Positions 1,666-54,585 of a DNA stretch of 64,000 bases are shown piece by piece; position 1 is the first letter of the stretch; each line of letters opens with the position of its first letter. The translations under genes and the position numbers were made by a program. The notes below the pieces were generated by a model. The model was not told where the DNA came from, made no database searches, and saw only the letters and a program-made list of their open reading frames with translations. The DNA comes from Dioscorea cayenensis subsp. rotundata (lineage: Eukaryota; Streptophyta; Magnoliopsida; Dioscoreales; Dioscoreaceae). The stretch is from NCBI RefSeq assembly GCF_009730915.1, contig NC_052486.1, positions 18,009,589 through 18,073,588 of the forward strand, read 5' to 3'.

Positions 1666-1675
1666 CCTTTTCAAC
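1666..1675. repeat. Left target-site duplication of the Pack-MULE
   Basis: CCTTTTCAAC, repeated exactly at 3362-3371. Confidence 0.9.
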
Positions 1676-1913
1676 GGGTTAATTTTTCAGTTAGTCATCC
1701 AACTATAACTAATTATCACTTCGGTCACCTAACTTCAAAATGTATCAAAATGGTCACCCAACTAATAATGTCTTTCACCGGTCAGTCACCAGAGAGATTC
1801 CGGCAAATAAAATCTTGCGTGACAACCGGAATAGCTGAGTCAGCATTATTTAACCATGTCAGTAGTCTAACTTGGCTTGTCCACGTAAGAGAAACTTGCT
1901 GACTAGGGTTAAG
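1676..1913 (+). repeat. Pack-MULE left terminal inverted repeat
   Basis: 238 bp, the inverted match of 3124-3361. The same block includes CACCGGTCAGTCACCAGAGA and GCTGAGTCAGCATTATTTAA on both arms. Confidence 0.92.
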
Positions 1914-1929
1914 AACGTCAACATCCCCT

Positions 1930-3075
1930 TCACTGGCCGCCACCTTCTGCAACGCTTTGGATGATATCATAAACAACTTCATTGACCCACCTCTCCTCCG
2001 GCCCTCCGTCAATCCCCGCAACATCCTTTCCGACAACTTCGCCCCGGTCTCCGAGCTCCCCCCGACCCCATGCCCCATCATTCACGGCCGTATACCACCT
2101 TGTCTCGCCGACGGCGTCTACATCCGCAACGGCCCCAACCCTCAATATCTCCCTCGCAGTCCTCACCATCTCTTCGACGGCGACGGCATGCTCCACTCCC
2201 TCCTCCTCATCCTCCTCTTCGCCATCTCTTCTCTTCTCCCGCTTTGTCCGCACCTACGCTCCCATCCTTCCCAACGTCTTCTCTGGCTTCCACAGCTATA
2301 CCGGAGTTGTCTGGCGGTGCCGTCAGCCGCCGACTTCCTCACTCGGGTCAAATGAGCGTGACTCGGGGAACCGGCTTAACTAACACCGGTCTAAGCTTCT
2401 TCGCCGGCCGTCTCTATGCTCTCGTGCAGTCGGACCTCCCTTATGATAGGGATCCGAAACACACTCAAGAGAAATATCGGAAGAAGAACAAGGTACAAGA
2501 ACTCGGATGTTTCGTTGAATGAAGAACACATCGATATTAATTACTTGATGCTTCATACCATAACATAATTTAGAATATATAGAGTTCATACAGAGATCAT
2601 TTAGACATACTTAAACATCAAACATAAACAACAAAAAAACATCGATTAACTAGTCTCAAAGAGCAGCAAAATAAAGACCGATCAAACTTTTTGCATTTCC
2701 CATGCTTCATCAGTATTCGACTTTTATGTCTCGAACTCATTGTTAATTTCGGATCAAATCATTCTCCAACACCTTACTCCCTCCACCTTTCCACCAACGA
2801 TGGCGACATCTCCATTCTCTGCCGTGAAGACTTCTCCAGCGAACTCTTCATGGGCATGACCGCTCATCCCAAGAAAGATCCTACCACCGGCGAGCTCTTC
2901 GCCTTCCTTTACGGCCCCATCCCTCAATTCGTCACCTACTTTCGGTTCGACAAGGACGGCAACAAGCTCGCTGACGCTCCCATCTTCTCCGTTCGTGAGC
3001 CATCCTTCCTCCATGACTTCGCCATCACCGAAAACTACGCTATATTCCGCACAAGACATCGTCGCCTCACTCCTT
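1930..3075 (+). pseudogene. Carotenoid cleavage dioxygenase 4-like gene fragment (captured)
   Basis: Three segments in the Pack-MULE translate to CCD4-like protein. Segment 1 (about 1930-2200) contains NFIDPPLLRPSVNPRN, VYIRNGPNPQYLP and HHLFDGDGMLHS. Segment 2 (about 2350-2455) contains TGLTNTGLSFF and ALVQSDLPY. Segment 3 (about 2750-3075) contains MTAHPKKDPTTGELFAF and SFLHDFAITENYAIF. The family cleaves carotenoids in plastids with a non-haem iron held by four histidines. Here only the regions of the first two (TAHPK and FLHDF) survive. The frame is broken between segments 1 and 2, about 300 bp of unrelated sequence separates segments 2 and 3, and both the transit peptide and the C-terminal half are missing. 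It cannot encode an enzyme. GC content is well above the flanks, fitting capture from a coding exon. Confidence 0.85.
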
Positions 3076-3123
3076 CTGAATTGAGGACGAAGAACCAAGA
3101 AGAAAGATGATGATGTGGAAGGT

Positions 3124-3361
3124 CTTAAGCCGAGTTAGCAAGTTTCTCTGACGTGGACAAGCCAAATTAGACTGCTGACATGGTTAAATAATGCTGACTC
3201 AGCTATTCCGGCTGCCACGCAGGATTTTATTTGCCGGAATCTCTCTGGTGACTGACCGGTGAAAGACATTATTAGTTGGGTGACCATTTTGATATGTTTT
3301 GAAGTTGGGTGACCGAAGTGATAATTAGTTATAGTTGGATGACTAACTGAAAAATTAACCC
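3124..3361 (-). repeat. Pack-MULE right terminal inverted repeat
   Basis: Reverse complement of 1676-1913 with scattered single-base differences and no large gap. It is followed at once by the second copy of the 10-bp target duplication. Confidence 0.92.
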
Positions 3362-3371
3362 CCTTTTCAAC

Positions 3372-5124: not shown

Positions 5125-8100
5125 CTAAAGACTCCCGCGCACAGTCGCCATAGAATCAGAAATCTTCTCTTTGGCACCATCTGCGCAAGTTGAGAACCAA
5201 GACAGGAGCAAATGATCAATTTTGATAATAAGCACATGAACAGGCACAACAACAACATTGAAAATAAGATCATTTCTAGCGAGCCAGACAAGCCACATAA
5301 TGGCTTTCACAAGCAACTTGCTAAAGGCCCTAAACGAAGGTCGCAATAAGTTTCTCCAATCCACCCAAATGTCGCTCATTGAAATAGGAGGATCCGGTAA
5401 ATGAAACAAGTTAGCAAAGTAACCCCAGATATTTATAGTGTATAGACATCTCAGAAATAAATGATCCACGGATTCAATCCTTGAATTGCACAGAACACAA
5501 GTGGAAGTAGGCATCTTATTACATCTTCTTCTTGCTAGATTTTCCAAGGTGAGAACCTTGTTCTTCCACACCAACCAATTAAGAAGGTTGATCTTCTTAG
5601 GGCAGGAACCGCGCCAGAGAAACCCCACCACCGGGCACCTCAACCCTCCATCAATAAGGAAATTGTAAAAGGATTTCATTGAGAAGATACCATTGCTAGT
5701 CAACTTCCAACATTTTAAATCCTCACACCCTCCTCTAGCCTCCCTCACCCGATCCCTAAGACGCCCAGCTTCGGGGTTAGCCGAAAATGGAGCCTCCTTA
5801 AGAAGAAAAGCCAGCTCCCGCACGGTGCCATTGGGTAAAGAACTATTTCTGAATTCATCAGGCCACAAGTCCCTCGGCGCAACCTCGTTAAACCAGCGGT
5901 CTTTCCAAAACAGGGTCTTATCACCGGAATTGATGCCATGCACAAAACATCCTTTGAATGCCGGGAGGCAAACCGACGTACTTTTCTAAAAAGATGAGAT
6001 ATGACCCGACAAAATGGGGGAAAGGTTCCACCTAGATAACCCATAGTTGAACTGCACGACCGACGCTCCACACTAGTTAGGATCCATCACAAATTTCCAC
6101 CACCATTTTCCCAGTAACGCTAAGTTAAAGCTGTGCAGATCCAGGATCCCCGAACCCCCTGCTCTCGTGGTCGACACAAAGACCTCCAACCAACCAGCCG
6201 ATTACTTGGATGATTAATATCCAGCCCAGACCACAGAAAATCCCGCCTGATGCGATCCAATGGCTTGATAACCCAGCACGGAAGTTTAAAAATGGACATC
6301 CAATAAATTGGAAGGCCCGAAAGGACAGAATTAACCAAAGTGAGATGCCCCCCAAGGGATAGATACCGAATCTTCCATGAGGAGAGTCGTCTTTTAACTT
6401 TTTGGATCAATTCCTCCCAATCTTGTCTACGGGGCCTTCTATTTGCAATAGGGACACCGAGATAGTTGACAGGAAGATAGCCCACTTCGCAATTAAGCAT
6501 TTTCGCCGCCCCCTCCTGTGGTAGTTCACCCATCGAGCTCGAGTAGAGGCAAGTTTAGGCAAAGTTAGTTTTCAAACCCATCATACCTTCAAAGACGCAG
6601 AGGATTAACTTTACAATTTTAAGGTCCTCAATACCACTCGTAGTCAAAATCAACAGATCTTCAGCATAATGAAGATTACATCTGCTTCCGAACCCCCCGA
6701 GAGGGACACCCACCAAAATCTTGGATCTCAGCGCATGGGTGAACATCGCACTTAGCACATTGGTGACTAGGACAAAAAGAAGAGGTGAGAGAGGGTCCCC
6801 CTGCCGTAACCCCCTCTTGTAACGAATATAACCACTAGGGGAACCGTTAACAAGAATGTTAGCCTTCGAAGAAAATAGAATACTTTTAATCCAGCCAACC
6901 CACCTATCCCCAAAACCCCTGGCTTTGAGAAGGTCTAAAAGAAAATCCTAGTTCACCGTGTCAAAGGCTTTTGCAAAGTCAACTTTCAAAATATGCCCCG
7001 GAAGTCTATGTTTATGGATGCTAAAAATAAGCTCTTCAGCCGTAACAATGTTGTCTAAAATACATCTCCCTTTCATGAACGCAGACTGGTCTATGTCTAC
7101 AAGTAAAGTCATCACCTTGCTTAACCGGTTAGCCAAAATTTTAGAAAGAATTTTCAACGTGGAATTGATTAAGCTAATGGATCGGTAGTCCGCTGTCGAC
7201 TCCGGGGTGCCAATCTTAGGTATTAGCACAATATTAGCCCAATTAATTCTTTCCAGATTCACATTCCCGTGAAAGAAATCCTCTCAAAGTCGCAGAAGAT
7301 CGGATTTAATCAACTCCTAGAATTGCTTGAAAAAATGGATCGGGAATCCATCCAGTCCTGGAGCCGTATTACCTCCCAACTCAAACACATCACTCTAATC
7401 TCCTCCATCTAGAACGGAAGATCTAAGTGCTCCAAATTGACATGACTCTTGCCGATCAAAAGTTTCTGCAGGTCCACTCGGAGTCTCTACTCTCTCCTCT
7501 TACCAAACTGTTGCTGAAAGCGCGCCGAGAAAACTTTCCCAATATCCTTCGCATCTGTGACAGTAGCACCATCTTATCGGATATTAGGAATAAAATTCCA
7601 ATTTTTACAGCCATTTGCAATAGAGTGAAAAATTTCGTATTTTCATCCCCTTCCTTCAGCCATTGGACCCTCGATCTTTGCCTCCAGTATACCTCTTCTT
7701 GTCTGTGAATATCCTTTAGGTTTTCTAGCAATGCTTTCTCCTGTTGCAATTCCGACGGGGTGAGCCTACGACTTTCCTTAGCAATGTCGAGAGAATCGAG
7801 CTCCTATAAGTAAGCTAGTTTATTAAGCTTAATCAAACCAAACTCAAATTTTGCCCAATACCGTAAGTGGTTACGCAGACTCATCAGTTTCTTAGCAAGC
7901 ACAAAAGCCCTACATCCCATCGGTGACATAGAAGACCACCAAAGTGTCACCAACTCCTGGAAACCTATCGCCATTAACCAGGCCAACTCAAATCTGAACG
8001 ACCTAGGTTTGGAATTGTGAGTGCCGACCTCCAGATGAATCGGTACATGTCCGACCCTAATTGCAGAAGGCAGTTTTGAATTAACTTTGGGAAAAGAATA

Positions 8101-8687
8101 GTCCAAATATTATTGACCACAAAGCGATCCAGGTTTACCCAATTCGGTCCCAAAGAATGAGGTTCTATCAGACCGAGGTCGAACATGAATTTGTTAGCAC
8201 ATCGGAGATCAGCTAAATTCGGGGTCCCATTAAGCTTATTATCCAAAGAGAAAATTGCATTGAAGTCCCCACACACCACCAAGGGAATAATGGTGTCATT
8301 ATTACAAATGCTAAGTTCCTCCCAGAAATCTAGTTTAAGTGATCTCGCATTTGGACCATAGACCGAGGTACAACGCCACTTAAAGTTATCCAATTTGGAA
8401 TAAAATTCCACTGTCAAACTGAATGAACCCACCAAAGTTATGAACCCAGAATAAAGGCCACCATTCCATCCAATAATAATACCACCCGCCGTTCCCCTAG
8501 TTGGTAGGTAAACAAATTGATAGAGACGGCTCCGTCCGATCTCTCTCTAAATTGCCACCGGCACATTCTCCAGTTTCGACTCTTGTAAACAACAAACGTC
8601 AGCAAAATGCAAGTTTAAAAAATCCTTCACCAGGAACTGCTTAGCCGGTCTCCCAAGGCCCCTAACGTTCCAAGAAATAATATTCAT
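5125..8687 (-). pseudogene. LINE ORF2: endonuclease, reverse transcriptase and zf-RVT, broken
   Basis: The minus-strand start at 8687 gives MNIISWNVRGLGRP, the standard plant-L1 ORF2 opening of the AP-endonuclease-like domain, and is followed by an in-frame stop about 50 codons later. Further endonuclease motifs include SVYGPN and VCGDFNAI (about 8250-8370). Reverse transcriptase pieces include VLIPKIGTPESTADYRSISL (about 7160-7230), DFAKAFDTVN (about 6960) and a catalytic box read as YAED instead of YADD (about 6657-6668). The zf-RVT region with CVLCNSRIESVDHLFLRC follows at about 5440-5500. The product would nick target DNA and reverse-transcribe the LINE RNA. Multiple frameshifts, plus Asp to Glu in the polymerase box, make it non-functional. 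Confidence 0.85.
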
Positions 8688-15543: not shown

Positions 15544-16027
15544 ACTATCTCCTTCTTTTTGGTTTTCAGCCTTCAAGTATGACCTTTCACCATGGCGGTA
15601 GAACTCTTCAAATCTTTTACTATTTTAGACTTCTGAATAATCTACTAGTAAAAGTCATCATAGCTTATTCATTGCAATCCTCAGAAATACCATGAGATGA
15701 GTTCTATCAATTGATTCATCATGGTTCTAATCAAATGTTGACAAAACTCACTTGCAGGATGTAGCCAGCCTTTTCAAACAATGAAACTGAATCAATGCAA
15801 GTTAAAGATGTAGGGGAAAAAAACAGAACAGTAGAAAGAATGCAGGCACTTCATTCAATTAACATAGTTTTTTCAGCAAATTATCATTGAAGCACTGCAA
15901 TATAATCCACTGCAACCTCTGGAAAACAAAAACAAGCAATAGAAATTTTGTGCCATTTTATATCTTATTAGCAGGTTATCAAGCACGTCAAATTCAATAA
16001 AGCAACAGTACTCCAAGATCAGACAGC

Positions 16028-17388
16028 ATGTCGTCCGGAGACACAATAACCGGCACAGGTATGTGAAAATAAGATGTATATATATATATATATATAGTCA
16101 TGTATTCTATATTCATCTTATTTCCACATATTTCGCAGTGGCAATAGTGGCTGTTAGTATTGTGACCATCGTAGTGGCAATTGCAATTATTAGATGCATT
16201 CAGAAGATTCGAATGCAAGCAAGGAACACATCTGCGCAGACTAGGAACACAGCTATGCAAGCAACTGCTGTATCTACTGAATCCAGACCATTGAATTCAG
16301 CAGTGGATGTGGATTCAAGCATCGACATGGTTACAATTGAGTGCTTTCTAAAGGATATAGTAAAAGAGAGACCTGTCAGATTTTCTCCTCAGAATATTAT
16401 CGATTTTACACAAAACTTTGCACAAAAATTGGGTTCAGGAGGGTTCGGAATAGTCTATAAAGGGCAGTTCCCCAATGGTGTGCAGATAGCAGTAAAAATA
16501 CTTCACAAAACTCAAGATAAAAAAGCTGAGGAGCAGTTCATGGCAGAGATAGGAACCATAGGAAGAACACACCATATCAACCTTGTTAGGCTCTTTGGAT
16601 TTTGCTTTGATAAAGCTTTGAAAGCACTTGTTTACGAGTATATGGAAAAGGGCTCACTAGATGGTTACTTGTTTGATGAGAATCTGAAGCTCAAATGGGA
16701 AAAGCTTTATGAGATTGCCATCGGAACAGCCAAGGGGATCAGATACCTGCATGAGGAGTGTCAGAGGAGGATAGTGCATTATGATATAAAGCCTGGAAAT
16801 GTTCTTCTCGATGCTAATTTCTTTCCAAAAGTGGCAGATTTTGGATTGGCAAGGCTTTGTGATAGAGATAATACCCATGTCAGCATGACAGGAGGCAGGG
16901 GAACTCCTGGCTATGCAGCACCAGAGCTCTGGATGCCATACCCTGTGACTCACAAGTGCGATGTTTACAGCTACGGAATGCTCTTGTTTGAGATACTGGG
17001 AAGGAGACGGAATCTCATTCTCGGCCAGGCAGAGAGCCAAGAATGGTTTCCGAGATGGATATGGGACAAGTTTGAAGGAGGAGAACTAGAAAGTGTCATG
17101 TTAAATTGTGGGATAGAACACAATGACAGAGATAAAGCAGAGAGGATGTGCAAGGTGGCATTGTGGTGTGTTCAATATCAACCAGATGCAAGACCTTCGA
17201 TGAATAGCATTATAAGGATGTTGGAAGGAGAGGAGGAGATCATTGCACCAAAAAATCCATTCCAATATATGATGCCATTTGATGGGAGTTCATCTCAGTG
17301 GAGTGAAAGCAGAGGAGATTCAACAAGCACAGCAACAGCAACAAATGAAAGTGAAGAGAATAGTTTGATTCATCAAAATCAGCAGTAA
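16028..17388 (+). CDS. KinA: LRK10L-like membrane-anchored non-RD kinase, A type
   Basis: Exons 16028-16058 and 16139-17388 (intron GT..AG, with a TA repeat) give 426 residues. The N-terminus MSSGDTITGT is followed by a hydrophobic membrane segment (about 11-30), a Ser/Thr-rich linker and a kinase domain. Visible kinase motifs are the glycine loop GSGGFG (109-114), lysine 130 in IAVK, catalytic loop HYDIKPGN (224-231), DFG (244-246) and APE (271-273). All catalytic residues are present except the Arg of HRD, so this is a non-RD kinase, a class common among plant immune receptors. It resembles Lr10/LRK10L kinases but has no cysteine-rich wall-associated ectodomain, and is about two thirds of the family's full length. 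It could act with a separate receptor. The start is set by the conserved exon 1 donor. A non-coding leader exon precedes it. Confidence 0.88.
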
Positions 17389-18928: not shown

Positions 18929-19978
18929 CATTGTGGAGTTTTAGGCACCACAAATAATTAATATCTGACGCCATAAATTTTACATGTTGAAAAGTCCGCA
19001 GCTGCCACACATTTGATTGTCAAAATTTTGAACTAATAATATTAAATTCACAAGGACATTATCTTTGGCCATGCATGGCTGTCCTCGCGCTTGGGAAATG
19101 ATAAGTATAACATCATAAATTCTCAATTATTAACGTGCTCAGAGCTTCTCAATGAAGATGTTGGAAGGGGAGATGGAGAACAACCTCCTGGAGATAGAGC
19201 AACTCTCATGAAGACTTCATAGGTTGATAAAGTATGCCAAAGAAATTATGAGCTTATGGCTCTAAATGAATCATAAAGTATGTATTCATTCAATTTTGAA
19301 AAAAAGTGGATAAACCACATGCATTAACTGAGTATTCATTCATTTCATTAGCTAGAATCATAAAGTATGTATTCATTCATTTCGTAAAAATTGAAGGGAG
19401 TTACTGAATGAATGTGAAATAAGCAGTATAGCTTCTAATTTTACATGTTAACACACGAGCATGTTCTTCGAATGTCATGTGATCACACCACATTTCTTAG
19501 CAGTTGTAATGTTGCTATTTTTTTTTCTAACGAATATGCAACGAGCAGCTCTATTCAAGAGATTGCCAAAAGAATAGATAGATATGGAAGTGCACCAATT
19601 ACGTTGACATAAAGACCTCCTAGAAGAAATAATATCACTATCTGATTTGATGTTGCCTTTACTTCTGACCTCAAACCGCGTTTAATTGTCTACAAAGTGC
19701 TCTGAAGAAGAAATAACTTAGACTGTGTCAAATTGATGTACCATTGAAATATTAAACTCTTGCATGAATCATCTAGGAAATTTCCAATGATAACGAAGAG
19801 AAATTTTCATAACTCAAGGACTTTATATTTTAAGAGGAGTTTTCTCACGGAATTATAAATAGAGCATGATGATGCGAGTATTATAATATATCCTCAAAGG
19901 TTCGTGTGCTCAGGGCTTCTTTCTTATCCTGATTTTTCACTTCCATTTTGGAACTTCTGGAACTGCTATAGATAAAAA
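18929..19978. other. KinB upstream region
   Basis: No gene. Most of it aligns with the KinC upstream region (31.7-34.7 kb). It includes a very short LINE tail (AAAAAGTGGATAAACCACAT at about 19301-19320) lying between repeated GTATTCATTCA sequences. An AT-rich TATA-like element near 19880-19892 precedes the KinB start by about 90 bp. Confidence 0.55.
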
Positions 19979-20827
19979 ATGTCATCTGGTGACAGCACGC
20001 AGAGTAACTTTCAAGACAGTGCGCAGAGCACCTTTCAAGCATGGCTAATAGCCGTAATCGGTGAGATCCTTACCCAACCCAATCAAGTCCATTTTTCATT
20101 GTTTCATGCATATGAATGGTTCCTGCTTGACTTCACTTCTCAAATTCATCTATTTTTGTGTATGTTTGCAGTAATCTCATGTCTGAGTGTAGCTGGGACA
20201 GCTGTCGGAGCATATTTCTTATACAAGTGCTTCACAAAACATGGGTTGCCACAAATCAACATAAACAGCAATTCAACACCCGCAAATCCATCATCTGCCA
20301 CGGATGGAGATGAAAAAATGACCGCCCAAAATTCATGGATTGAAGATGCAACGGTTGAGAGGTTTCTCAATAACATTGCAAAGGAGAAGCCAATCAGATT
20401 CACACGGCAACAGCTCGCTGGCTTAACTCGCAATTACACCATTCGCCTGGGTTCTGGTGGGTTTGGGACAGTCTACAAGGGACAGCTTCCTAATGGAGTC
20501 CAAGTAGCAGTAAAGGTGCTAAACACCGGCGGTTCTGAGGACAAGAGACTAATGGAGCAGCAGTTCATGGCAGAGATTGGCACCATTGGAAGAACATTTC
20601 ATGCAAACCTTGTTAGACTCTATGGCTTCTGTTATGATTCAATTGTCAGAGCCCTAATTTATGAGTTCATGGACAAGGGATCTCTAGACACATACCTGTT
20701 TGACAAGAGCCACACCATTGCATGGGACAAGTTGCATGAGATTGCAATAGGTACAGCTAAAGCACTCTCTTACTTGCATGATGAATGCGAGCAAAGGATC
20801 ATACACTATGACATCAAACCAGCAAAC

Positions 20828-21138
20828 TGTTAAAGGATGAAGATTGTTTGATAGCCAGCTAAGCATGTTTTTCATAGACTTCCTGTTTTCCTGCTGCTGT
20901 ATATACATGATACATGGGCCCTTGTTCAGCGGGTTTTCAGCCACCATGCCACTCACGGGTTTGTAAAAGCTGCATAACCAAGAAAGTTGTATATATATAT
21001 AAGAGAGAAGTGGCTGTAAGAGATCTTCATCTTGTTCAACAAAAGCTTTCCTTCTCTATCAAAATAGAACCATCTTTTCTGCTTTTCCTGAAATATTTCT
21101 TCATTTTACTTTCATATTTTGGTTTACATTTTGTGATA
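20828..21138 (+). repeat. Copia-1 5' LTR
   Basis: 311 bp. Its last 120 or so bases are identical to those of the 3' LTR; the first 190 differ at about nine places (see findings). It contains ATATATATATAAGAGAG, a plausible TATA region. Confidence 0.92.
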
Positions 21139-21150
21139 TGGTATCAGAGA
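21139..21150 (+). promoter_or_regulatory. Copia-1 primer-binding site
   Basis: TGGTATCAGAGA starts directly after the 5' LTR. It matches the usual plant Copia primer-binding site, complementary to the 3' end of initiator tRNA-Met. Confidence 0.88.
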
Positions 21151-21151
21151 T

Positions 21152-24100
21152 ATGATGGATCAACTTGATTCAAACCAAACTTCCAACTCAAACAACACTG
21201 TCAAGACAAGTGCAAATTCTCTTGATCCAACTCATCCAAATAGCCCTTACTATATTGGAGCAAATGAAAACTCTGGAGCACTCCTTGTCACTCAGCTGTT
21301 AGATTCAACCAACTACCATGCATGGGCAAGATCAATGAAGCGAGCATTGCGCATCAAAAACAAATTGGGGTTCATTGACGGCAGTCTTACCGAACCCACA
21401 GATCCAGATGATTCCTTGATGGAATATTGGCTACGATGTAATGATATTGTTATCACTTGGTTACAAAATACTCTTTCGGTTGACATAAAATGCAGCACAT
21501 TTTATGCTGAGACTGCCCGCCAACTATGGGTTGAGCTTGAACATCGCTACGCTCAACAAAATGCGCCAAGAATCTATGAAGTCAAACAAGGAATAGCCAG
21601 CATAATGCAAAATAATGACACTGTAAGTGTATACTTCTCAAAGTTAAAAGTATTTTTTGATGAGCTTTTGAATTATGAAGCAGTCCCACAATGTTCTTGT
21701 GGAGGTTTGAAAGTAGTGGTGGAATACCAGCAAAGAGATTGGGTGATGAAGTTTCTTATGGGACTCAATGAATCTTACAAAGAACTCAAAGCACAAATTC
21801 TGTTGATCAAGCCTTTTCCTAGTCTTAATGAGGTGTATTCCATTATACAACAAGAAGAAAAGCGCAGAGACATATCTGCAAACACTCAAAATACTGAAGC
21901 TATGGCATTAATGGTGAAGGAACCAAATAAGCACATTAATATGCAAGCTTCGATTCCAAACAGAACCAGATATTATTGTTCTCATTGCAAGATGCCTGGT
22001 TATTCAGTTGAGCGCTGCTTTAAGGCAAACACAAATAAACCTATCTGCTCACATTGTCGAGTTCCTGGACACACTAGCGAAGTTTGTTACAAATTGCATG
22101 GATATCCAAAGGGACACAAGTTTCATAACAAAGCCAAGTTTTCAGGACCATATGCCCACCATGTTTCATCTGCAGCCACTTCTAAAGGAGAACAGAGCAT
22201 CAATACAACTCAGAATACAATAACACAAGAACAATATACTCATCTGATGAATTTGCTGCAACAAAATCAACCTTCAACCCACTCTACACAGTCATCTATT
22301 GTGACTAGCACAGATATGCAAATGCCAAGATTTTTTGGTATGTCTTCATGCCACTCTATTTACTCAAACAAAAGGGAGAACATGGAGGAGACTCCATGGA
22401 TCATTGACTCTGGAGCTTCAGATCACATAATTTGTGATGCTTCTTTATATAACTCTATTGGTGCCCAAGTTCATCATTTTGTCAGTTTGCCAAATGATAA
22501 AAGGATCAATGTGACACACACTGGAACCATACAATTAACAGAAAGATTGATTTTATATGAAGCTTTGTGTGTTCCATCCTTTTCTTTTAATCTTATATCA
22601 GCCCAAAGACTTGCACAAACACTAAATTGCTGCCTTGTTTTCTTACCCAATTCTTGTTTCATTCAGGACCTTTCGACTTGGCAGACGATTAGAGTGGGTG
22701 AAGTGAAGCATGCATTGTACCATCTTTTGAAAAGGAAAGTCTCCCCAACAGCATTATCTGAAGTTCTATCTCCACTAATCCAAAGACCTTCTGCTGCAGC
22801 CACAATCACACACAATGAACCTTTCAACCTTTGGCATTATCGACTTGGCCACCCTTCTCTATCTAGCTCAAATTTCCTGAATCATGTTGATGAATCAAAA
22901 CTCCTTCAAAACAAACCTTGTTTCATTTGCCCATTAGCAAAATTGCATAGACTTCCTTTTCCTCTCAGTAAACACAAGACCTTGAAATGTTTTGATCTTG
23001 TACATTGTGATGTCTGGGGGCCTTGTAATGAAGTTTCATATGATGGTTTTCGATTTTTCCTTACCTTAGTTGATGATTTCAGCAGATGTACCTGGGTCTA
23101 TTTACTTAAATTTAAGTCGAATGTGAAGACAATACTCCAAAGCTTTCACACCATGATAGAAACACAATTTGGAACCAAAATCAAGATAATCCGAAGTGAT
23201 AATGGCGGAGAATTTGACCTTAAGGAATTCTATAGCAAGAATGGAATTATCCATCATAGAACTTGTGTAGAAACCCCAGAACAAAATGCAATTGTGGAAA
23301 GAAAACACCAGCATATTCTTAATGTTGCTCGGGCATTAAGGTTTCAAAGTGGATTAGAATTGAAATATTGGAGTGATTGCATCCTGACTGCAGTGTACCT
23401 AATAAATAGAACACCTTCATCTAGTTTAAAAGCCAAAACTCCTTTTGAATTACTTTTTAAGTCTAAGCCTCTCTACAATCACCTTAGAGTTTTTTTGGAT
23501 GTCTTGCTTTCGACTCCACCCTCACCCACAATAGACACAAGTTTGATGCCCGAGCTAGAAGATGTGTATTTCGGGATATCCATTTTGGTATAAAAAGGAT
23601 ATAAGTTGCTCGATATCGAAAACAAAGAAAATCTTTACCTCAAGAAATGTAATATTTCATGAGAGCAGTCTTTCCTTACAAAGCTAACACAAAAGATATC
23701 AACTACACAGATTTGTTTGAATTGCCTTTTGTTCAAGGAGTTCCTTTAGATCAAACCATTGAAATACCAAAAACCACACTCCAAAACACCAACTGCCAGA
23801 ATGTTCAACCTAATGACATGGTTCCTCCCATTGAAAACCATCATCCACTACATGAAGGTGATTCCCCAGAATTTGTCACAAGGTCACAAGATCAAAGCAA
23901 TAACACAAGAATCCCTGCTCATTCACCAAGAAGATCCAACAGAAATAGGAAAACACCTTCTTATCTTGAAGATTTTATTTGCCAACAAGCTAGTGCTTCA
24001 CTCATTCACTCAAAGAAGTTTGCCAAGAAGAAAGATTCTCAAAAACCAGGTAGTCCTCATCCTCTTTATCATACATTATCCTATGATAACCTTACTTCCA

Positions 24101-25684
24101 AATATAAGAGTTTTGTTTCATCAATCACAACTCAAATTGAACCAAGTTCTTATCATGAAGCCTGTGAGAACCCAGAATGGCAAAAGGCTATGCAAGATGA
24201 GATAAAGGCCTTGGAACAAAATAAAACTTGGGTCCTTTGTGATTTGCCATCAGAGAAGAAACCCATTGGATGCAAATGGGTTTACAAAGTAAAACACAAT
24301 GCTGATGGAACTGTGGAGAGGTTAAAGGCCAGACTTGTTGCAAAAGGATATACACAAAAGGAAGGATTAGATTACCATGAGACCTTCTCCCCTGTTGCCA
24401 AAATGGTCTCAGTGAGAGTTCTTTTAGCATTGGCAGCAGTAAAAGGATGGTATCTTCACCAATTCGATGTAAACAATGCTTTTTTACATGGTGACTTGAA
24501 TGAGGAAGTGTATATGCAACTACCTCCTGGATATGCCACTACTAAAGAGCCTAAGGTATGCAAACTTCTAAAAAGGCTTGTATGGTCTAAAAGCGAGGCC
24601 TCACGACAATGGTATGCAAAGCTTTCAAAGTTTATCATTCAGCATGGGTTTGTTCAATCTAAGGCTGATTATAGTCTATTCACCAAGTTTGAAAATGGTA
24701 TCTTCACTGCTTTGCTTGTTTATGTAGATGACATTATAGTTGCAAGCAACAACATAACATCTATCAATCATTTAAAGTCTCTTTTGAATGCTAAGTTCAA
24801 GATCAAAGACCTTGGTGAGCTGAAATTTTTCTTGGGTTTGGAAGTTGCTAGATCAAAAAAAGGGATACATGTTTGCCAGTCAAGTATGCCCTTGATTTGC
24901 TTGTTGACTCGGGGAACCATCGGGGCCAAACTCGTCAAGCTACCTTTGGATCAAAAATCTCAAGTTGTCAAAGGAAGATGGAGAATTGATAGTCGATCCA
25001 TCCATTTACGTAAGGCTTATAGGAAAGCTAATGTATTTGACCTTAACAAGGCCGGACTTGTCATACTCGAGTGCAATTGTTGAGCCAATTTATGGACAAC
25101 CCACGAAATACTCACTTAAATGCAGACACATAAAGTACTAAGGTATATTAAAATGGCACCGGTCAAGGTCTATTCTATCCCTCCAATTCAACTCTACAAC
25201 TTGAAGCTTACGATGGCGATGGATCGGGGGCTTGTCCGAGACACAAGAAGATCCAGTAACGGGGTATCTGCATCTTCATTGGGTCCTCTTTAATATCATG
25301 GAAATCCAAGAAACAACCAACGATTGTCACGTTCCTCCGCAGGTCGAGTATAGGGCCATGGCATCTACTTGTTGTGAATTATCTTGGTTGCGGTACTTGT
25401 TCGCAGATTTCAGAGCTGAACATCCTCAAGCAGCAACATTATATTGTGACAACAAAGCGACGAATACATATAGCGACTAATCCAGTGTTTCATGAACGCA
25501 CCAAACACATAGAACTCGATTGTCACTTGGTTCGAGAGAAGATACTGGATGGAAGCTTGATTACACATCATGTTAATGACGACATTGCAATTGGCGAGAT
25601 ATGTTCACAAAACCTCTCCCTAGCTACTTATTTCATTCTCATTTGGGCAAGATGGGAGTTGATAACATCTACTCTCCATCTTGT
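21152..25684 (+). pseudogene. Copia-1 gag-pol polyprotein, frameshifted
   Basis: The ATG at 21152 opens an 813-codon frame. It holds a gag UBN2-type region (about 45-230), zinc-knuckle-like [14 protein letters not shown] with a degenerate neighbour, protease core DSGASDHI (about 419), GAG-pre-integrase [10 protein letters not shown], and an integrase with HCDVWGP, SDNGGEF and an IVERKH glutamate. The frame breaks near 23490. The next open segment (23659-25083) has the connection region and reverse transcriptase with KARLVAKGYTQKEGLDY and YVDD (24721-24732). RNase H pieces follow in two more frames, with EYRAMASTCCELSWL and HIATNPVFHERTKHIELD. It would copy and integrate the element. At least three frameshifts prevent a full polyprotein. 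Confidence 0.9.
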
Positions 25685-25690
25685 GAAAGC

Positions 25691-26002
25691 TGATAAAGGA
25701 TGAAGATTGTTTGATAGCCGACTAAGCATGTTTTTTTCATAGACTTCTGCTTTTCCTGCTACGTATATACATGATACATGGGCCCTTGTTCAGTGGGTTT
25801 TCACCACCATGCCACTCACGGGTTTGTAAAAAGTCGCATAACCAAGAAAGTTGTATATATATATAAGAGAGAAGTGGTCGTAAGAGATCTTCATCTTGTT
25901 CAACAAAAGCTTTCCTTCTCTATCAAAATAGAACCATCTTTTCTGCTTTTCCTGAAATATTTCTTCATTTTACTTTCATATTTTGGTTTACATTTTGTGA
26001 TA
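25691..26002 (+). repeat. Copia-1 3' LTR
   Basis: 312 bp, the partner of 20828-21138. It is followed directly by CAAAC and the resumed KinB coding sequence. Confidence 0.92.
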
Positions 26003-27809
26003 CAAACATCCTCCTTGACCACAACTTCACCCCTAAAGTGGCTGACTTTGGATTGGCGAAACTTTGCAACAGAGAGAACACTCATGTGAGCATGACGGTA
26101 GGGCGGGGAACTCCGGGCTATGCTGCGCCGGAGATGTGGATGATGGGACAAGTGACATACAAATGTGATGTTTATAGCTTTGGGATACTCCTGTTTGAGA
26201 TTGCAGGGAGGAGGAGGAGCTTTGATGCAAGCTTGGAGGAAGATGAGCGTTGGTTTCCAAAGTGGGTGTGGGAGAGGTACGAGAATGGAGAAATGGAAAA
26301 GGTGATGGAGACAATTGGAGTTGATGATGAACACAAGGGTGAAACAGAGAGGAAACTAATGGTGGCCTTGTGGTGTGTGCAGTACCAGCCAGAAAGAAGG
26401 CCTCCCATGGACAAGGTTGTGAAGATGTTGGAAGGGGAGATGGAGATTGTGCCTCCATTGAACCCTTTCCAGCACCTGCTTTCATCTTCTGCACCATCCA
26501 AGGATTTGTGGAGTGGCACGAGTTTGTCATCAAGTGGAGCAGATAACCAAGGACTAAGATTTCACTCTTTACAACAACAGCAACAACAACAAGAAGAAGA
26601 AGCCGCTAGATTTTACTCTTTACCCGTTTGAAAAACCACACAGTAATTACCCACTGCCCACTTCAAGTATATCAGTTATTTGTAGCTGAAACAAAAGAAA
26701 TGCATATTATTTTCTCAGTTTGTACTGGTTTTCCTTTATATTAAATCAGTGATTTATTTACTTTCCTATATATATATATATATATATGAAATGCATATTC
26801 CAAAATATACATGTTTGAAGGAGGAGAACTAGAGAGTGTTATGTTAAACTGTGGGATAGAACACAATGACCGAGATAAAGCAGAGAGGATGAGCAAGGTG
26901 GCTTTGGGGTGTGTTCAGTATCAACCAGGTTCAAGACTTTCAACGGATGGCATTGAGAGAATGTTAAAAGGAGATGAAGAGATCACTGCACCAAAGAATT
27001 CATTCCAATATATGACAGTGGCGGCTCAAAGCTTATAAAGGCCTAAAGCGCAAGCATGGAACGGGGCCTTAATTAATTAGTAAAAAAAATTTTATTAAAA
27101 AAGTCATAATATAAAACAAACAATAACAAAATGATAGACACCAAAACAAACAACAAAAAACAAATAACAAGATTATAAAATAAAGCTAGTTCAAAAAGTT
27201 CAAAAAGAAAATCCTTATTTTATATAAATTCAGAAATTGTTTAGTTGACTTGATATCATCTTTGTATCTTCAAATCACATCCATTTCTTCATGTTGAAAA
27301 AGATCATTAAGGCTAAATAATCTCACAAAACACAAATTGATCAAAAACTCCTTTTGGGAATACATCTTGAGCTTCCAAGCAATTGCAAAGGCTTCATTTT
27401 AGCTTGTAGTCTTGAAAGGAAATTTAGGACTAATTCTCCTGCAAATATAATAATATTAAAGTTATTCACAAGTACAAACCAAATTCTACTCATATTTAAA
27501 TTTTTTTGCCAAGATGTATTACTAATAAGAGTATAGAAAGTACCAGATTGATTAGATTGAATTAATTTCCTTATCTCAAGTTTGTTGTCCCTTGTAAAGT
27601 CTATAACAATTTGAAGTCCATCAAACAATGAGTTGAAAGTCTTGTTGTCGCCCAGGTTACATCTGACCTACTACAAAAACCATACATAAGTAGCTAACAT
27701 AGATTTAAAGCAAAGAGAAGCAAATCAAAGTATGCCAAATAGTCAAGATTGAATCCCATGCTATAAAGACATTTATTCTATAAAAAGAAGAATTTCTCAC
27801 TCCCAAAAT

Positions 27810-30334
27810 TTATTTAAAATTTATTTTTCTAGCCTTTTGAGATGCAAAATTATTAATTAAGTTTTTATAATCAATTTCTTCTAGCATTTGTTTTTCAATT
27901 GATAATATAGACAATCCATTTAATCTTTCTTGAGACATTGTTGATCTTAGATAAGATTTTATTAATTTCAGTTTTGAAAAACTTCTTTCAGCTGAAGCAA
28001 CAGTTATAGGAGTTGTTAACATGATTCTATAAGCAATATACTCATTTGGAAAAGAATTAAACCTTTTTATTTGATTAAGTATGTCAATTAGAGTATTATC
28101 TTCTACTTGCATGATTTCTCTTAATACTTTCAATTCAAAAAATAAATCTAAACCATCGATATCAGAGTAGCTATTATGCTTTAAGCAACATTCAAGGTTA
28201 ATGCAACATTTTTTTAAAGTCTCATTATCTAATGATTTCAATTTCTTACCACTAAATAGAAAGCCAAAAATATCTTCATATAATTTGAATTGTTCAAATC
28301 TACTTTGAAGTGAAAGAATAACATTGTCCACTATATATAAGAAATAATCAATTCGAAATGATTCTTCAATGGTCTTTGTTGTTTCACGAGTATCATAGTC
28401 ATCAAATTGTCTTTTTCTTCTTATAACACGTTTCTCACAAAATTTAGGTTCTATATTCATTTCAAATGCAATTTCTTTAGTAGACACCATAGCACTTGCA
28501 AATCCTTCTTCTCTATATTTTTGAAAAAAAGAGATAAAACCTTTTATTTGATCTATAGCAACATCAATGCACATATCTTTCGATTGTAAATTTTTGCTAA
28601 TTGAATTAATAGCAAACAATATATCATACCAAATAGTAATACCCAATAAAAACTCAAAATTTTCAAGCTCATATATTGCTAAACAATTAGCTTCACTTTT
28701 AGTTTTTGGATCCTCACTAACTTCTACTAATTTCAATAAAGCATCTCTTATTTGTGGAGTTTGAAACCCCGATAGCTTTTAACACTTTCAATACGACTTT
28801 CCCAACGTGTTTGTGATAATGGTTTAAGAGTTAAATTGGGTATAGTATCTTTTTAAAAATTTTTCCATCTTTTTAGTAGAAGAAGCAAATAATGAATAAA
28901 TACGTTGTATTACTCCAAAAAAATGAGATAGCTTTTAGTGCAAGAACTAGCCATATCACATAGCACCAAATTTAGATTATGACAACCACATGGTGTATAA
29001 AAATGACCTAGGATTTATATCTAAAATTCTCTTTTGCACTCCTTGGTGTTTTCCCTTCATATTTGATCCATTATCATACCCTTGTCCTCTTAAGTTGTTA
29101 ATATCAAGACCTATATTTTTTTATTTCATCCACAATAATTTCGAAAAAGACTTTTTTTCCACTAGTATCATGTACTTGTAAAAAAACTCTAAAAAAATGT
29201 TCTTCTATTTTTTTATTGGAGTTGATGAAACATCCACAATTCTCACAATGAAAGACATTTGCTCTTGATGACTTATATCTGGAGTATAATCAAGCATAAT
29301 CGAAAAAAATATTTTTGCTTCTAATAATAATTTTTATCTTTAATTTCATTTGCTAACAAATTTATTAATTCATTTTTGCATGTTATGCCCAAGATAATGG
29401 TTATGAATTTCATCATGTTTAATGCGTCGAATATGTTCTTGCATCACCGGATCAAATTCGCAATCATTTCAATTAGACTTAAAAAAATTTCCATTACTTT
29501 CTTGATTGATTTTTTCATTTTTTCCCCTAAATGCCAAATTATTTTTACCAAGAGTTTTTATCACAGCAATAATTCTTAATAATACATTTTTTTCCAATGT
29601 CCCCTCTCTATTAATTTGTTCTTGGACATGCTTATCAATTGTTTTTATTTTTTTAATAGCCTCATTTCTAAATCAATCCATGAACTCATATTAAAAAAAC
29701 ATGCTCATTGCTTGTTTCATGATTTTTTTAAGCTTAGTACTTAGATTTCTCCAATCATTAGTACCTTCATTAGCTAGTTTACCAATACTTGAAATAGAGC
29801 TAAACAACTTGCAACAAAAACAAAATACTTTATCTAAATCTTTGGAATAAATCAACCATCGTCTTTCATGCTTCTCTCCATTTGCCAAATTTTGAATATA
29901 ATGTGTTGCAGAAAAATGTCTCGATAATTTATCTTTTGGAAAATCTATATCAGTAACTCTAATTGGCCCTTTTTCAACTAATAAATCTCTCAAATTTGCA
30001 TTAATATTTGTCCATTGACTAGGATCGTATATATTCTTAGAAATGCAATCATTAGATTCATTCACAAGTTGGTCTTCATAAGGATCTATATTAGATTTTT
30101 CGCTAGCTTCTTCTTCTATTTGAATATCATTTAACTCAACCACATTACTAACTTGTTCATTCACTCCATTTAAAGGACATTCTTCAGGTTCTTCTATGTT
30201 TTCTAACTCTGTTTTTGCATTGCTTGTTAAAAATTTATCAATAGCACCTTTTTTTGAGATTGTATTAAAGTTTCAATTCTTTTCTTTTTTTCTTGAGTTT
30301 TTGCATAACCGGATTCATACTTTCCGGTAGACAT
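27810..30334 (-). pseudogene. hAT transposase (TTF zinc finger, DUF4371, hAT dimerisation), broken
   Basis: The minus-strand ATG at 30334 gives MSTGKYESGYAKTQEKK and is followed by a frameshift in an A-run near 30255. The next frame (30164-29691) holds the TTF-type finger region with ATHYIQNLANGEKHERRWL and VFCFCCKLF. The middle (about 29690-28740, the DUF4371/RNase H-like core) is broken by several frame changes. The last frame (28736-27810) ends with the hAT dimerisation motif, ERSFSKLKLIKSYLRSTM. Such proteins cut and paste hAT elements by their RNase H-fold DDE site. This copy cannot make a complete one. Confidence 0.85.
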
Positions 30335-30460
30335 ATTTAAAAAAACAATATAAATTAAAATAACATGAGAAGGTTAAAACAATAGAACCTGTTAACTTGA
30401 GTAGTATATATGGATAAATTGTATTTGCCTCAGAGAAAATATATGTCTGGAACTCCTTGT

Positions 30461-30535
30461 CGCCTTACGGTTGTTACTTGTGAGTCGCCTTACGGTTGTT
30501 ACTTGTGAGTCGCCTTACGGTTGTTACTTGTGAGT
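30461..30535. repeat. 25-bp tandem repeat x 3 inside the hAT
   Basis: Three exact copies of a 25-bp unit containing CGCCTTACGGTTGTTACTTG, at 30461, 30486 and 30511. It lies about 130 bp upstream of the transposase start and 600 bp from the terminus. It could hold subterminal transposase-binding sites or be part of the promoter; neither is shown by the sequence. Confidence 0.9.
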
Positions 30536-31329
30536 CAGCTGTCAGCGAGTGATGATTATCGCAAACAAGAACTCAATAGCAATGATAAAAACCTTTAACG
30601 GTATAAAAAAAATTATAATCTTTATTTATAATAGAAATTAAAAAATTTGACCGTTAGTAACTCATGCCTATATTTTTTATTTTTTTATTTTTAGGAATAG
30701 GTTGGTTAGTTGGGGAAAAGATAGAGCATTAATTATGCATTGAAGTATTTTTTTGGAAATAGATTTGTTTCTTTGGGAGAAGAAGATAAGTAGTTATACA
30801 TTATAATTTATTAGTTTTTTTATTTAAAAAAACTAGTTGATGAAAGATTTGAAATAGGTGAAATATTAAATAAAAAAATTAAAATATTAATTAATTATAC
30901 AACAAAAAAATTATTATGATTACAAAAAAATAGGATTTTTAAAAATTTTTTTAAAAAAATTTAAAAGTTAATGATGAGGCCTCAAATTTAATTCATAAGT
31001 TGTTATGGACTTGGAGTTATTATAATCATTTTGATAATTAAGATTTTAAAAACTATAGTGGTTTAATTTAAGATGAGGCCCTTGATTTTTGGGGGCCTAA
31101 AGCGATTGCTTGATCAGCTTTACCCTTGAGCCGCCACTGATATATGATGCCATTTTATGGGAGTTCATATCAAAGGAGTGAAAGCAAAGGAGATTCAATA
31201 AGTGGTCTTGCACATGAACAACAACAAATGAAAGTGAAGGGAATAGTTTGATTCATCACAATCAGCAGTAAAACAATAAATTTAGAAGGTCTTCTTCATT
31301 TTGTTCAAATTCGATATATACGAGATATA

Positions 31330-34768: not shown

Positions 34769-36235
34769 ATGTCATCCACAGGCAGCACGCAGAGCACCTC
34801 TCAAGGCAGCTCAGACAGTAGCGGTCTAGTATGGATAATAATTATGATTGGTGAGATCCTTATCCAACACAATCAAGTTCATCTTTGGTTCTTTCATGCA
34901 TAGTTCCTGCTTGGGTTCCATTCTCAAATTCATCTATTTCTGTAAATGTTTGCATGCAGTAATCATAATACTGGATTTTTATTGGTAAAAGGAGTACTGG
35001 TGACAATTGGGAAAATATATTTCTTGTACACGTTGTACCAGAAACATGTGTTGCGGAAAACCAATAATTCAAATCCATCACCTGTCATGTATGGAGATGC
35101 AAATATGGTTTCCCCAAATTTATGGATTGAAGATGCAACAGTGGAGAGGTTTCTCAAACAGATTGCAAAGGAGAAGCCAATCAGATTTACATTCCCACAG
35201 CTTGCTGGCATCACTCGCAACTACACCATTCGCCTGGGCTCTGGCGGTTTTGGAATAGTCTACAAGGGACAGCTTCCTAATGGAGTCCAAGTAGCAGTAA
35301 AAGTGCTAAACACTGTAGGATCTGAGGACAAGAGACTAATGGAGCAGCAGTTCATGGCAGAGATTGGCACCATTGGAAGAACATTTCATGCAAACCTTGT
35401 TAAACTCTATGGCTTCTGCTATGATTCAATTGCCAGAGCCCTGATCTATGAGTACATGGACAAGGGATCTCTAGACACATATCTGTTTGACAAGAGCCAC
35501 ATCATTACATGGGAGAAGTTGCATGAGATTGCAATAGGTACAGCAAAAGCACTCTCTTACTTGCACGATGAATGCGAGCAAAGGATCATACACTATGACA
35601 TCAAACCAGCAAACATCCTCCTAGACAACAACTTCACCCCTAAAGTGGCTGACTTTGGATTGGCAAAGCTTTGCAACAGAGAGAACACTCATGTGAGCAT
35701 GACTGTAGGGCGGGGGACTCCGGGTTATGCAGCACCGGAGATGTGGATGATGGGACAAGTGACATACAAATGTGATGTTTATAGCTTTGGGATACTCCTG
35801 TTTGAGATTGCAGGGAGGAGAAGGAGCTTTGATGCAAGCTTGGAGGAAGATGAGCGTTGGTTTCCAAAGTGGGTGTGGGAGAGGTACGAGAATGGAGAAA
35901 TGGAAAAGGTGCTGGAGATGATTGGAGTTGATGATGAACACAAGGGTGAAACAGAGAGGAAACTAATGGTGGCCTTGTGGTGTGTGCAGTACCAGCCAGA
36001 AAGAAGGCCTCCCATGGACAAGGTTGTGAAGATGTTGGAAGGGGAAATGGAGATTGTGCCTCCATTGAATCCTTTCCAGCACCTGCTTTCAACTTCTGCA
36101 CCATCCAAGGATTTATGGAGTGGCACGAGTTTGTCATCAAGTGGAGCAGATAACCAAGGACTAAGATTTCACTCTTTACAACAGCAGCAACAACAACAAC
36201 AAGAAGCCGCTAGATTTTACTCTTTACCAGTTTAA
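34769..36235 (+). CDS. KinC: B-type LRK10L-like non-RD kinase
   Basis: Exon 1 (34769-34850, MSSTGSTQSTSQ...) has the length, start and donor of KinB. The acceptor used by KinB (34959 here) would shift the frame. An AG at 34994 restores it and gives 440 residues, although its pyrimidine tract is poor. From there the frame is open to 36235: weak hydrophobic segment, NLWIEDATVERFL linker, glycine loop GSGGFG, AVK lysine, catalytic loop HYDIKPAN (non-RD), DFG, APE and a tail with eight Gln. All catalytic residues are present. There is no ectodomain. It may be functional if the alternative acceptor is used; otherwise it is a very young pseudogene. KinB is its close paralogue. Confidence 0.75.
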
Positions 36236-43155: not shown

Positions 43156-44472
43156 ATGTCAAATACGCCGACCAACAGTACTCCCTCAGGCTCGGATACG
43201 AGCAGCACGTCTGCTGGAGCAACAGCAGCTACCATCGGTACTTTGCGAAAAAGAATTGTATATCTCTAGTTATGTGCTCTGAATTCTACTTATTTCTGCA
43301 TATTTTCTACAGTATCAACCATAGTTGGTGGTATTGTGATCATTGTTATAGCTATTGCAATTATCAGATGCATTCAGAAGAACAGAATGCAAGCAAGGAA
43401 CACATCCGTGCAGACAACCAGTGAATCCGCTGTGAATGAGGATTCAAACTTCGACATGGTTACAATCGAGCGGTTTCTAACAGATATAGTAAAAGAGAGG
43501 CCTGTCAGATTTACTGCTCAGAATATTATAGATTTTACGCAAAACTTTGCACAGAAACTGGGTTCAGGAGGTTTTGGGATAGTCTACAAAGGACAGTTCC
43601 CCAATGGTGTACAGATAGCGGTAAAAGTACTTCACAAAACTCAGGATAAAAGAGCTGAAGAACAGTTCATGGCAGAGATAGGAACCATAGGAAGAACATA
43701 CCACATCAACCTTGTCCGGCTCTACGGATTCTGCTTCGACAACTCTTTGAAAGCACTTGTTTATGAGTACATGGAGAAGGGATCGCTGGACGGTTACTTG
43801 TTCGATGAGAATCAGAAGCTCAAATGGGAAAAACTTCATGCGATTGCCATTGGAACAGCCAAGGGGATCAGATACCTGCATGAGGAGTGTCAGAAAAAGA
43901 TAGTGCATTATGATATAAAGCCGGGAAATGTTCTTCTGGATGCTAATTTCTCTCCAAAAGTGGCTGATTTCGGATTGGCAAGGCTTTGTGATAGAGATAA
44001 TTCTCATGTCACCGTGACAGGAGGCGGGGGAACTCCTGGCTATGCAGCACCAGAGCTCTGGATGCCATATCCGGTGACTCACAAGTGCGATGTTTACAGC
44101 TATGGAATGCTCTTGTTTGAGATACTGGGAAGGAGACGGAATCTCATTCTTGGCCAGGCAGAGAGCCAAGAATGGTTTCCGAGATGGATATGGGACAAGT
44201 TTGAAGGAGGAGAACTAGAAAGTGTCATGTTAAACTGTGGAATAGAACACAATGACAGAGATAAAGCAGAGAGGATGTGCAAGGTGGCACTGTGGTGTGT
44301 TCAGTATCAACCAGATGCAAGACCTTCAATGAACAGCGTTGTGAGGATGTTGGAAGGAGAGGAAGAGATCATTGCACCAAAGAATCCATTCCCATATATG
44401 ATGCCATCTCAGTGGAGTGAAAGCAGAGGAGATTCAGTTAGCACAGCAACAACAACAAATGAAAGTGAATAA
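43156..44472 (+). CDS. KinD: LRK10L-like membrane-anchored non-RD kinase, A type
   Basis: Exons 43156-43237 and 43313-44472 give 413 residues. The N-terminus (MSNTPTNSTPSGSD, rich in S/T/A) leads into a membrane segment (about 28-47) and the kinase: GSGGFG (111-116), lysine 132, HYDIKPGN (226-233), DFG (246-248), GGGGTPGYAAPE. All catalytic residues except the HRD arginine are present. The start differs from KinA and KinE: KinD has ATG where they have ACG, and ACG where they have ATG. The tail is shorter than in KinA and ends at a stop within TNESE. No cysteine-rich ectodomain is present. Signal output at the membrane is inferred from family. The gene appears intact. Confidence 0.88.
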
Positions 44473-52009: not shown

Positions 52010-53311
52010 ATGTCATCAGCAACTTCCATCGGTACTATGCGAAAATGAATTGTATATCTCTAAATATGTGCTTTGAATTCTACTCATTTCTGCATATTTT
52101 CTACAGTATCAAGCGTAGTTGGTAGTATTGTGACAATTGTTGTAGTTATTGCAATTATCAAATGCATTCGGAAGAACAGAATGCAAGCAAGGAACACATC
52201 CATGCAGACAACTAGTGTATCTGTTGTGAAAGATGAAACAAACATCAACATGGTTACAATCGAGCGGTTTCTAGCAGATATAGTAAAAGAGAGGCCTGTT
52301 AGATTTACTACTCAGAATATTATAGATTTTACTCAAAACTTTGAACAGAAATTGGGTTCAGGAGGTTTTGGAATAGTCTACAAAGGACAGTTACCCAATG
52401 GTGTGCAGATAGCGGTTAAAGTACTTCACAAAACTCAAGATAAAAGAGCTGAAGAGCAGTTCATGGCAGAGATAGGAACCATAGGAAGAACATACCACAT
52501 CAACCTTGTTCAGCTCTACGGATTCTGCTTCGATGACACATTGAAAGCTCTTATTTATGAGTACATGGAGAAGGGATCGCTGGACAGTTACTTGTTCGAT
52601 GAGAATCAGAAGCTCAAATGGGAAAAACTTCATGAGATTGCCATTGGAACAGCCAAGGGGATCAGATACCTGCATGAGGAGTGTCAGAAAAAGATTGTGC
52701 ATTATGATATAAAGCCTGGAAACGTTCTTCTCGATACAAATTTCTCTCCAAAAGTGGCTGATTTCGGATTGGCAAGGCTTTGTGATAGAGATAATTCCCA
52801 CATTAGCTTGACAGGAGGCAGGGGAACTCCTGGTTATGCAGCACCAGAGCTCTGGATGCCATACCCTGTGACTCACAAGTGTGATGTTTACAGCTACGGA
52901 ATGCTCCTGTTTGAGATACTGGGAAGGAGACGGAATCTCATTCTCAGTCAGGCAGAGAGCCAAGAATGGTTTCCGAGATGGATATGGCACAAGTTTGAAG
53001 GAGGAGAACTAGACGGTGTTATGACAAACTGTCGGATTGAACACAGTAACAGAGATAAAGCAGAGAGGATGTGCAAGGTGGCATTGTGGTGTGTTCAGTA
53101 TCAACCAGATACAAGACCTTCAATGAACAGCGTTGTGAGGATGTTGGAAGGAGAGGAAGAGATCATTGCACCAACTAATCCATTCCAATATATGATGTCA
53201 TTTGATGGGAGTTCATCTCAGTGGAGTGAAAGCAGAGGATATTCAACTAGCACAACAACAGCAACAAATGAAAGTGAAGCGAATAGTTTGATTCACCAAA
53301 ATCAGCAGTAA
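52010..53311 (+). CDS. KinE: LRK10L-like membrane-anchored non-RD kinase, A type
   Basis: Exons 52010-52031 and 52107-53311 give 408 residues. The N-terminus is MSSATSIV; the membrane segment spans about 9-27; the kinase has GSGGFG (91-96), lysine 112, HYDIKPGN (206-213), DFG (226-228), APE (253-255), then the S/T-rich tail ending LIHQNQQ. The position used as start by KinD is ACG here (51956), so the first in-frame ATG in the spliced exon is 52010, homologous to the KinA start. An ATG at 51842 lies in the leader intron and would only matter if that intron were retained. Non-RD kinase with all other catalytic residues intact and no ectodomain. A short upstream ORF in the leader may lower translation. 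Confidence 0.86.
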
Positions 53312-54421: not shown

Positions 54422-54585
54422 TGTTAGATTTATATTTTTGGTACTAGTGGGCCCTATATGGGCTTTATATGAGCTTAGGGGTTTTATACTAAGAAGTCTC
54501 AAGACTTAGTGGTTCAACCCCTATATTTATATATAAATCCATTACGCTTCTATCACACAACCGATGTGGTACTATATTTCCAACA
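54422..54585. mobile_element. Short LTR-like insert (possible solo LTR of a small element)
   Basis: 164 bp with TGTTAG...CCAACA ends, interrupting relic F where KinB and KinC read through. Flanking pentamers are GATGG and AGTGG, so any target duplication is imperfect. The interior has GGGCCCTATATGGGC and no coding capacity. Confidence 0.6.

Follow-up and report, generated by a model that had tools for sequence, protein, structure and literature searches.

How did pieces of a carotenoid cleavage dioxygenase (CCD) gene come to lie between two long inverted repeats in Dioscorea cayenensis subsp. rotundata, and how is their division into three segments to be read? We addressed these questions in a 64-kb window (the whole stretch analysed: NC_052486.1, 18,009,589-18,073,588, forward strand, 38.5% G+C), whose positions serve as coordinates throughout. 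The element in question occupies 1676-3361 and is 1,686 bp long. We consider it probable that it is a Pack-MULE, that is, a Mutator-like element (MULE) with a captured gene fragment, which took up one continuous CCD4-like stretch (about residues 80-347 of Arabidopsis CCD4, AtCCD4), later received a solo long terminal repeat (LTR) insertion, and now most likely persists as an inert or silenced element with a pseudogene piece.

The element is bounded by the following features.

1666-1675, no strand: left target-site duplication CCTTTTCAAC, the same as 3362-3371.
1676-1925, plus strand: left terminal inverted repeat (TIR), 250 bp, from the arm-versus-arm comparison.
3112-3361, minus strand: right TIR, 250 bp, with three subterminal units, from the arm-versus-arm comparison.
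3362-3371, no strand: right target-site duplication CCTTTTCAAC, the same as 1666-1675.

The two arms align without gaps at 235 of 250 identical positions (94% complementary; BLASTN E = 5e-109). Their outermost 54 bp are perfect, nine of the 15 mismatches are transitions, and the Kimura two-parameter divergence is 0.063. A search of the window for inverted pairs of at least 60 nt (seed 12, distance limit 20 kb) recovered these arms alone. A sequence-only reading of this locus had given the inverted ends as 238 bp; the arms are real, and that length reflects a cut before the last three mismatches (240, 242 and 245). The perfect 10-bp duplication that it described was confirmed (10/10 bp, directly adjoining both arms), and a fixed match of this length would arise by chance about once in a million, by arithmetic rather than by a control. 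Its phrase “precise to the base” holds for the ends of the element and not for the ends of the capture. Its argument from the near-identity of the arms to recent movement was rejected: 15 of 250 positions (6%) differ and, unlike LTRs, the arms of a DNA transposon do not arise from a shared template when the element inserts. Because they are not reset at transposition, their identity does not date the move.

Each arm contains three subterminal units, spaced 29-30 bp apart and starting with AGTTGGGTGACC or a variant, at 3274, 3303 and 3333 in the right arm and at 1753, 1724 and 1694 on the minus strand of the left arm. The left-arm 11-mers at 1694, 1724 (AGTTAGGTGAC) and 1753 (minus strand) are of the AGTTGGRTGAC type, and neither this pattern nor AGTTRGGTGAC occurs in the window outside the arms. 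These repeated units could be putative transposase-binding sites. A 22-base TIR pattern had no match in viral contigs and none in prokaryote contigs, a result that is uninformative for a plant element, and a literature search with a TIR 12-mer returned no match whose title concerns a transposon.

MULEs generate target-site duplications of 9-11 bp and typically carry TIRs of 100-500 bp (PMC3310237; the articles cited by PMC number here are represented by excerpts). The present element has a duplication of 10 bp, TIRs of 250 bp and a gene fragment with RPE65 and CCD4 matches. When its four interior pieces were scanned against Pfam, two matched RPE65, two had no match and none matched a transposase, as had been claimed. 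We assign it to the Pack-MULEs because the lengths of its duplication and of its TIRs, together with a gene fragment in the absence of a transposase, all fit the excerpted descriptions (PMC3310237, PMC8903248), which bears out the structure first proposed. Its 1,686 bp is near the sizes common among tomato Pack-MULEs, the most abundant being 1,000-1,200 bp (PMC3310237), and it differs from Pack-MULEs in holding a probable nested solo LTR.

The interior is composed as follows.

1930-2202, plus strand: CCD4-like stretch, AtCCD4 residues 80-169, first frame (tblastn 64%; Pfam RPE65, E = 1.4e-15).
2231-2317, plus strand: CCD4-like stretch, residues 178-215, second frame, apparent gap of 9 residues (tblastn 47%, E = 7e-4 as listed).
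2319-2443, plus strand: CCD4-like stretch ending in ...SDLPY, third frame (tblastn and frame reading).
2439-2443, no strand: left CCTTA copy of the duplication around the nested insert.
2444-2771, no strand: nested insert, 328 bp, TG...CA, 33% G+C, probable solo LTR (ends, CCTTA duplication, frame restoration).
2772-2776, no strand: right CCTTA copy of the duplication around the nested insert.
2775-3047, plus strand: CCD4-like stretch, residues about 258-347, sharing the frame of 2319-2443 once the insert and one CCTTA are removed (tblastn 59%; RPE65, E = 5.9e-19).
3048-3111, no strand: 64-bp tail, perhaps a scrap of a long interspersed nuclear element (LINE), with RRLTPSEL common to the open reading frame (ORF) 7459-7803(-).

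The tblastn search with a provisional AtCCD4 sequence matched about residues 80-347 colinearly along 1930-3047, starting 4 bp inside the inner edge of the left arm and stopping 64 bp before the right arm. Further matches covered residues 196-258 at 2250-2444 (40% identity) and residues 249-347 at 2748-3047 (59%), the first few matched residues of the latter falling in the insert. The matches to residues 178-215 and 196-258 overlap in different frames, so the points of frame shift are approximate. Pfam RPE65 (PF03055) was recognized at 1939-2208 (E = 1.4e-15) and at 2628-3107 (E = 5.9e-19), and the middle pieces, 2196-2345 and 2346-2519, had no Pfam match at 0.001. In phmmer comparisons the two parts scored 120.8 and 116.9 bits with the provisional AtCCD4, 65.5 and 65.7 with maize VP14, and 53.9 and 71.5 with a CCD1, the latter two proteins being of solved structure. 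With one provisional reference and no tree, these scores make CCD4 the likeliest source, ahead of NCED and CCD1. Elsewhere in the window, tblastn gave no further CCD match with an E below 1.

The captured stretch resembles CCD4 in being about 59-64% identical to the provisional AtCCD4 over its two best stretches, and differs from it in being limited to about residues 80-347, frame-shifted and interrupted. The match runs no further than residue 347 and so contains two of the four iron-binding histidines, the last two lying beyond it; given this and the two frame shifts, an active enzyme is not expected. Four conserved histidines are described (PMC9387305). Judged against the provisional reference, the stretch is a pseudogene, with two shifts of frame and an apparent gap of 9 codons. 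None of the 250 aligned codons is an in-frame stop, and simulated neutral change left the stretch stop-free in 13% of runs at 0.2 and in 4% at 0.3 substitutions per site. Dating the capture from the absence of stops was rejected because the bound that it gives is too loose. Third-position G+C is 72% in the aligned codons; among other ORFs of the window it is 39-47% for four kinase ORFs and 33% for a copia ORF.

The nested insert is AT-rich, starts with TGATAGGG, ends with CTCCAACA and lies between ...SDLPY and YSLHL.... Removal of 333 bp, comprising the 328-bp insert and one CCTTA, yields the single frame SDLPY-SLHLSTNDGDI, colinear with CCD4. Among the 625 start-end pairs in a box set by the protein match, exactly one combines TG...CA ends with a 5-bp duplication. 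Solo LTRs of plant retrotransposons have TG...CA ends, a 5-bp duplication and a length of a few hundred bp. The insert at 2444-2771 is alike in its TG...CA ends, in the duplication (CCTTA on both sides) and in size, and differs in having no related element within the window. It is most likely an LTR retrotransposon reduced to a solo LTR inside the captured piece, as indicated by its TG...CA ends, the flanking CCTTA copies and the recovery of the CCD4 frame. As a structured RNA the insert did not stand out (z = -1.07; 15 of 100 shuffles fold as well or better).

Several points weigh against the history proposed here. The AtCCD4 query was a provisional sequence. The combination of TG...CA and 5 bp is uncommon but alone not decisive, since 8 of the 2,380 control boxes placed at other points of the window also contain at least one such solution. 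No further copy of the insert was found in the 64-kb window. GATCCGAAA near its left end recurs as the reverse complement near its right end, at unequal distances and paired in the predicted fold, and might instead point to a small element with inverted repeats. Finally, the proposed history does not cover the tail at 3048-3111. It shares RRLTPSEL with the ORF 7459-7803(-) (at 7738-7770), which belongs to a LINE-like stretch, over 8 residues, with 19 of 24 bases in agreement (E = 1e-4 in tblastn), a likeness that was noticed after the fact and was equalled by 1 in 3,000 shuffles. The tail may be a LINE scrap captured along with the CCD4 stretch, a reading for which the shared peptide is a hint only. 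LINE-like remains lie on the minus strand at 5128-8546, comprising a zf-RVT match, two pieces of RVT_1 and an endonuclease match too weak to pass the Pfam cut-off.

The alternative that survives best, which we nevertheless consider unlikely, is that 2444-2771 represents a small transposon of another kind, a further captured piece of genomic DNA or a parental intron. In its favor are the lack of a copy in the window and the inverted GATCCGAAA, and there is precedent both for Pack-TYPE elements with pieces from several loci (PMC8903248, in excerpt) and for multi-exon CCD4 genes, which are termed canonical (PMC13386687, in excerpt). Against it, the CCTTA duplication falls exactly at the break in the CCD4 match, the insert begins with TG and closes with CA, and its removal brings the CCD4 stretches back into one frame. 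The intron version was set aside, GT-AG or AT-AC ends being present at none of the 6 equivalent cut positions. A CACTA element, whose ends are CACTA...TAGTG, is disfavored by the lack of such ends in the insert. CACTA elements are described as duplicating 5 nt as well (PMC8903248).

Reading 2444-2771 as a solo LTR changes how the three CCD4 segments are understood. The sequence-only reading had implied an exon picture by proposing to compare exon borders. The CCD4-like content of the segments was borne out; the exon picture finds no support between the second and third, the gap there being a TG...CA insert with a 5-bp duplication. The segments are better taken as a single stretch, marked by two frame shifts, an apparent gap of 9 codons and a nested insertion. 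In Dendrobium, CCD4 is reported to lack introns, and the profiles in Arabidopsis and rice are described as similar (PMC9387305), whereas a Bixa paper describes single-exon and multi-exon CCD genes and terms the multi-exon form canonical for CCD1 and CCD4 (PMC13386687). These excerpted descriptions conflict, so the parent CCD4 may have one exon or several.

We propose that a non-autonomous Mutator-like element carrying the CCD4-like stretch inserted here, as its structure and the 10-bp duplication indicate, presumably after mobilization in trans by a Mutator-type transposase supplied from elsewhere. An LTR retrotransposon would then have inserted in the captured stretch at the Leu-Pro-Tyr codons, as suggested by TG...CA, CCTTA and the restored frame, and recombination between its two LTRs would have left the solo LTR. 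The nesting argues for the order capture, insertion, LTR-LTR recombination; the LTR insertion may have come before or after the element's arrival at this site. At present the element is likeliest inert or silenced, and would at most give rise to small RNAs driven by TIR promoters that face inward.

Small RNAs derived from the element could possibly silence the parent CCD4. Silencing of donor genes via small interfering RNAs has been reported for maize elements, including Pack-MULEs (PMC13317346, in excerpt). The stronger proposal, that the element works as a regulator, transcripts started at its TIR promoters being a source of small RNAs that reduce the parent CCD4 and increase pigment, seems to us improbable. 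TIR promoters have been described as driving Pack-MULE interiors (PMC3310237), and base pairing between the 250-bp arms is conceivable in a read-through transcript; however, silencing requires close identity to the parent, and captured fragments are usually non-functional according to the excerpted account (PMC13317346). More speculative still, and very unlikely in our view, is that the nested LTR altered a transcribed CCD4 small-RNA source by adding a promoter or terminator, with presence or absence of the insert tuning the parent CCD4 and pigment.

Equally remote is the idea that the element belongs to another long-armed type, such as foldback elements, with a coincidental 10-bp duplication: no Mutator transposase was matched (Pfam) among the 36 scanned of the 97 window ORFs of at least 90 aa outside the element, but the 10-bp duplication, 250-bp arms and captured gene piece together match described MULEs (PMC3310237, in excerpt).

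Elsewhere in the window, a tandem array of 55-bp units (about 6.9 copies, 336-732) lies just upstream of the element. A protein-kinase match is apparently split by a copia-type element at 19976-26628, the first half of the kinase profile falling at 19976-20830 and the second at 25867-26628, and matches to gag, integrase and reverse transcriptase occupy the interval. Five further protein-kinase ORFs in one orientation (15943-17385, 34946-36232, 43270-44469, 52064-53308 and 54493-55344) are perhaps a tandem array. The region 27813-30536 is very AT-rich (ORFs of 26-29% G+C), carries a hAT dimerisation match and includes a perfect 25-bp repeat of 3.1 copies at 30459-30536. The retroelement, hAT and protein-kinase matches, along with the plant CCD4 match, suggest nuclear DNA of a plant. 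Rfam at gathering scores gave no match in the window, and no tRNA was found there.

Taken together, the element is ordinary in kind, pickup of a gene fragment followed by a nested insertion being an ordinary type of event, and what is new here is the nested insert, through which the exon reading is corrected. A gap within a captured fragment can thus be a later insertion rather than an exon border. The literature search returned no paper combining “Pack-MULE” with “carotenoid cleavage dioxygenase”, and the excerpts of papers on CCD4 and “Mutator-like” describe no Mutator-like capture of CCD4. The element extends the set of genes observed in Pack-MULEs to one of the carotenoid pathway and, should it prove to be a source of small RNAs directed at CCD4, would become a candidate pigment locus.
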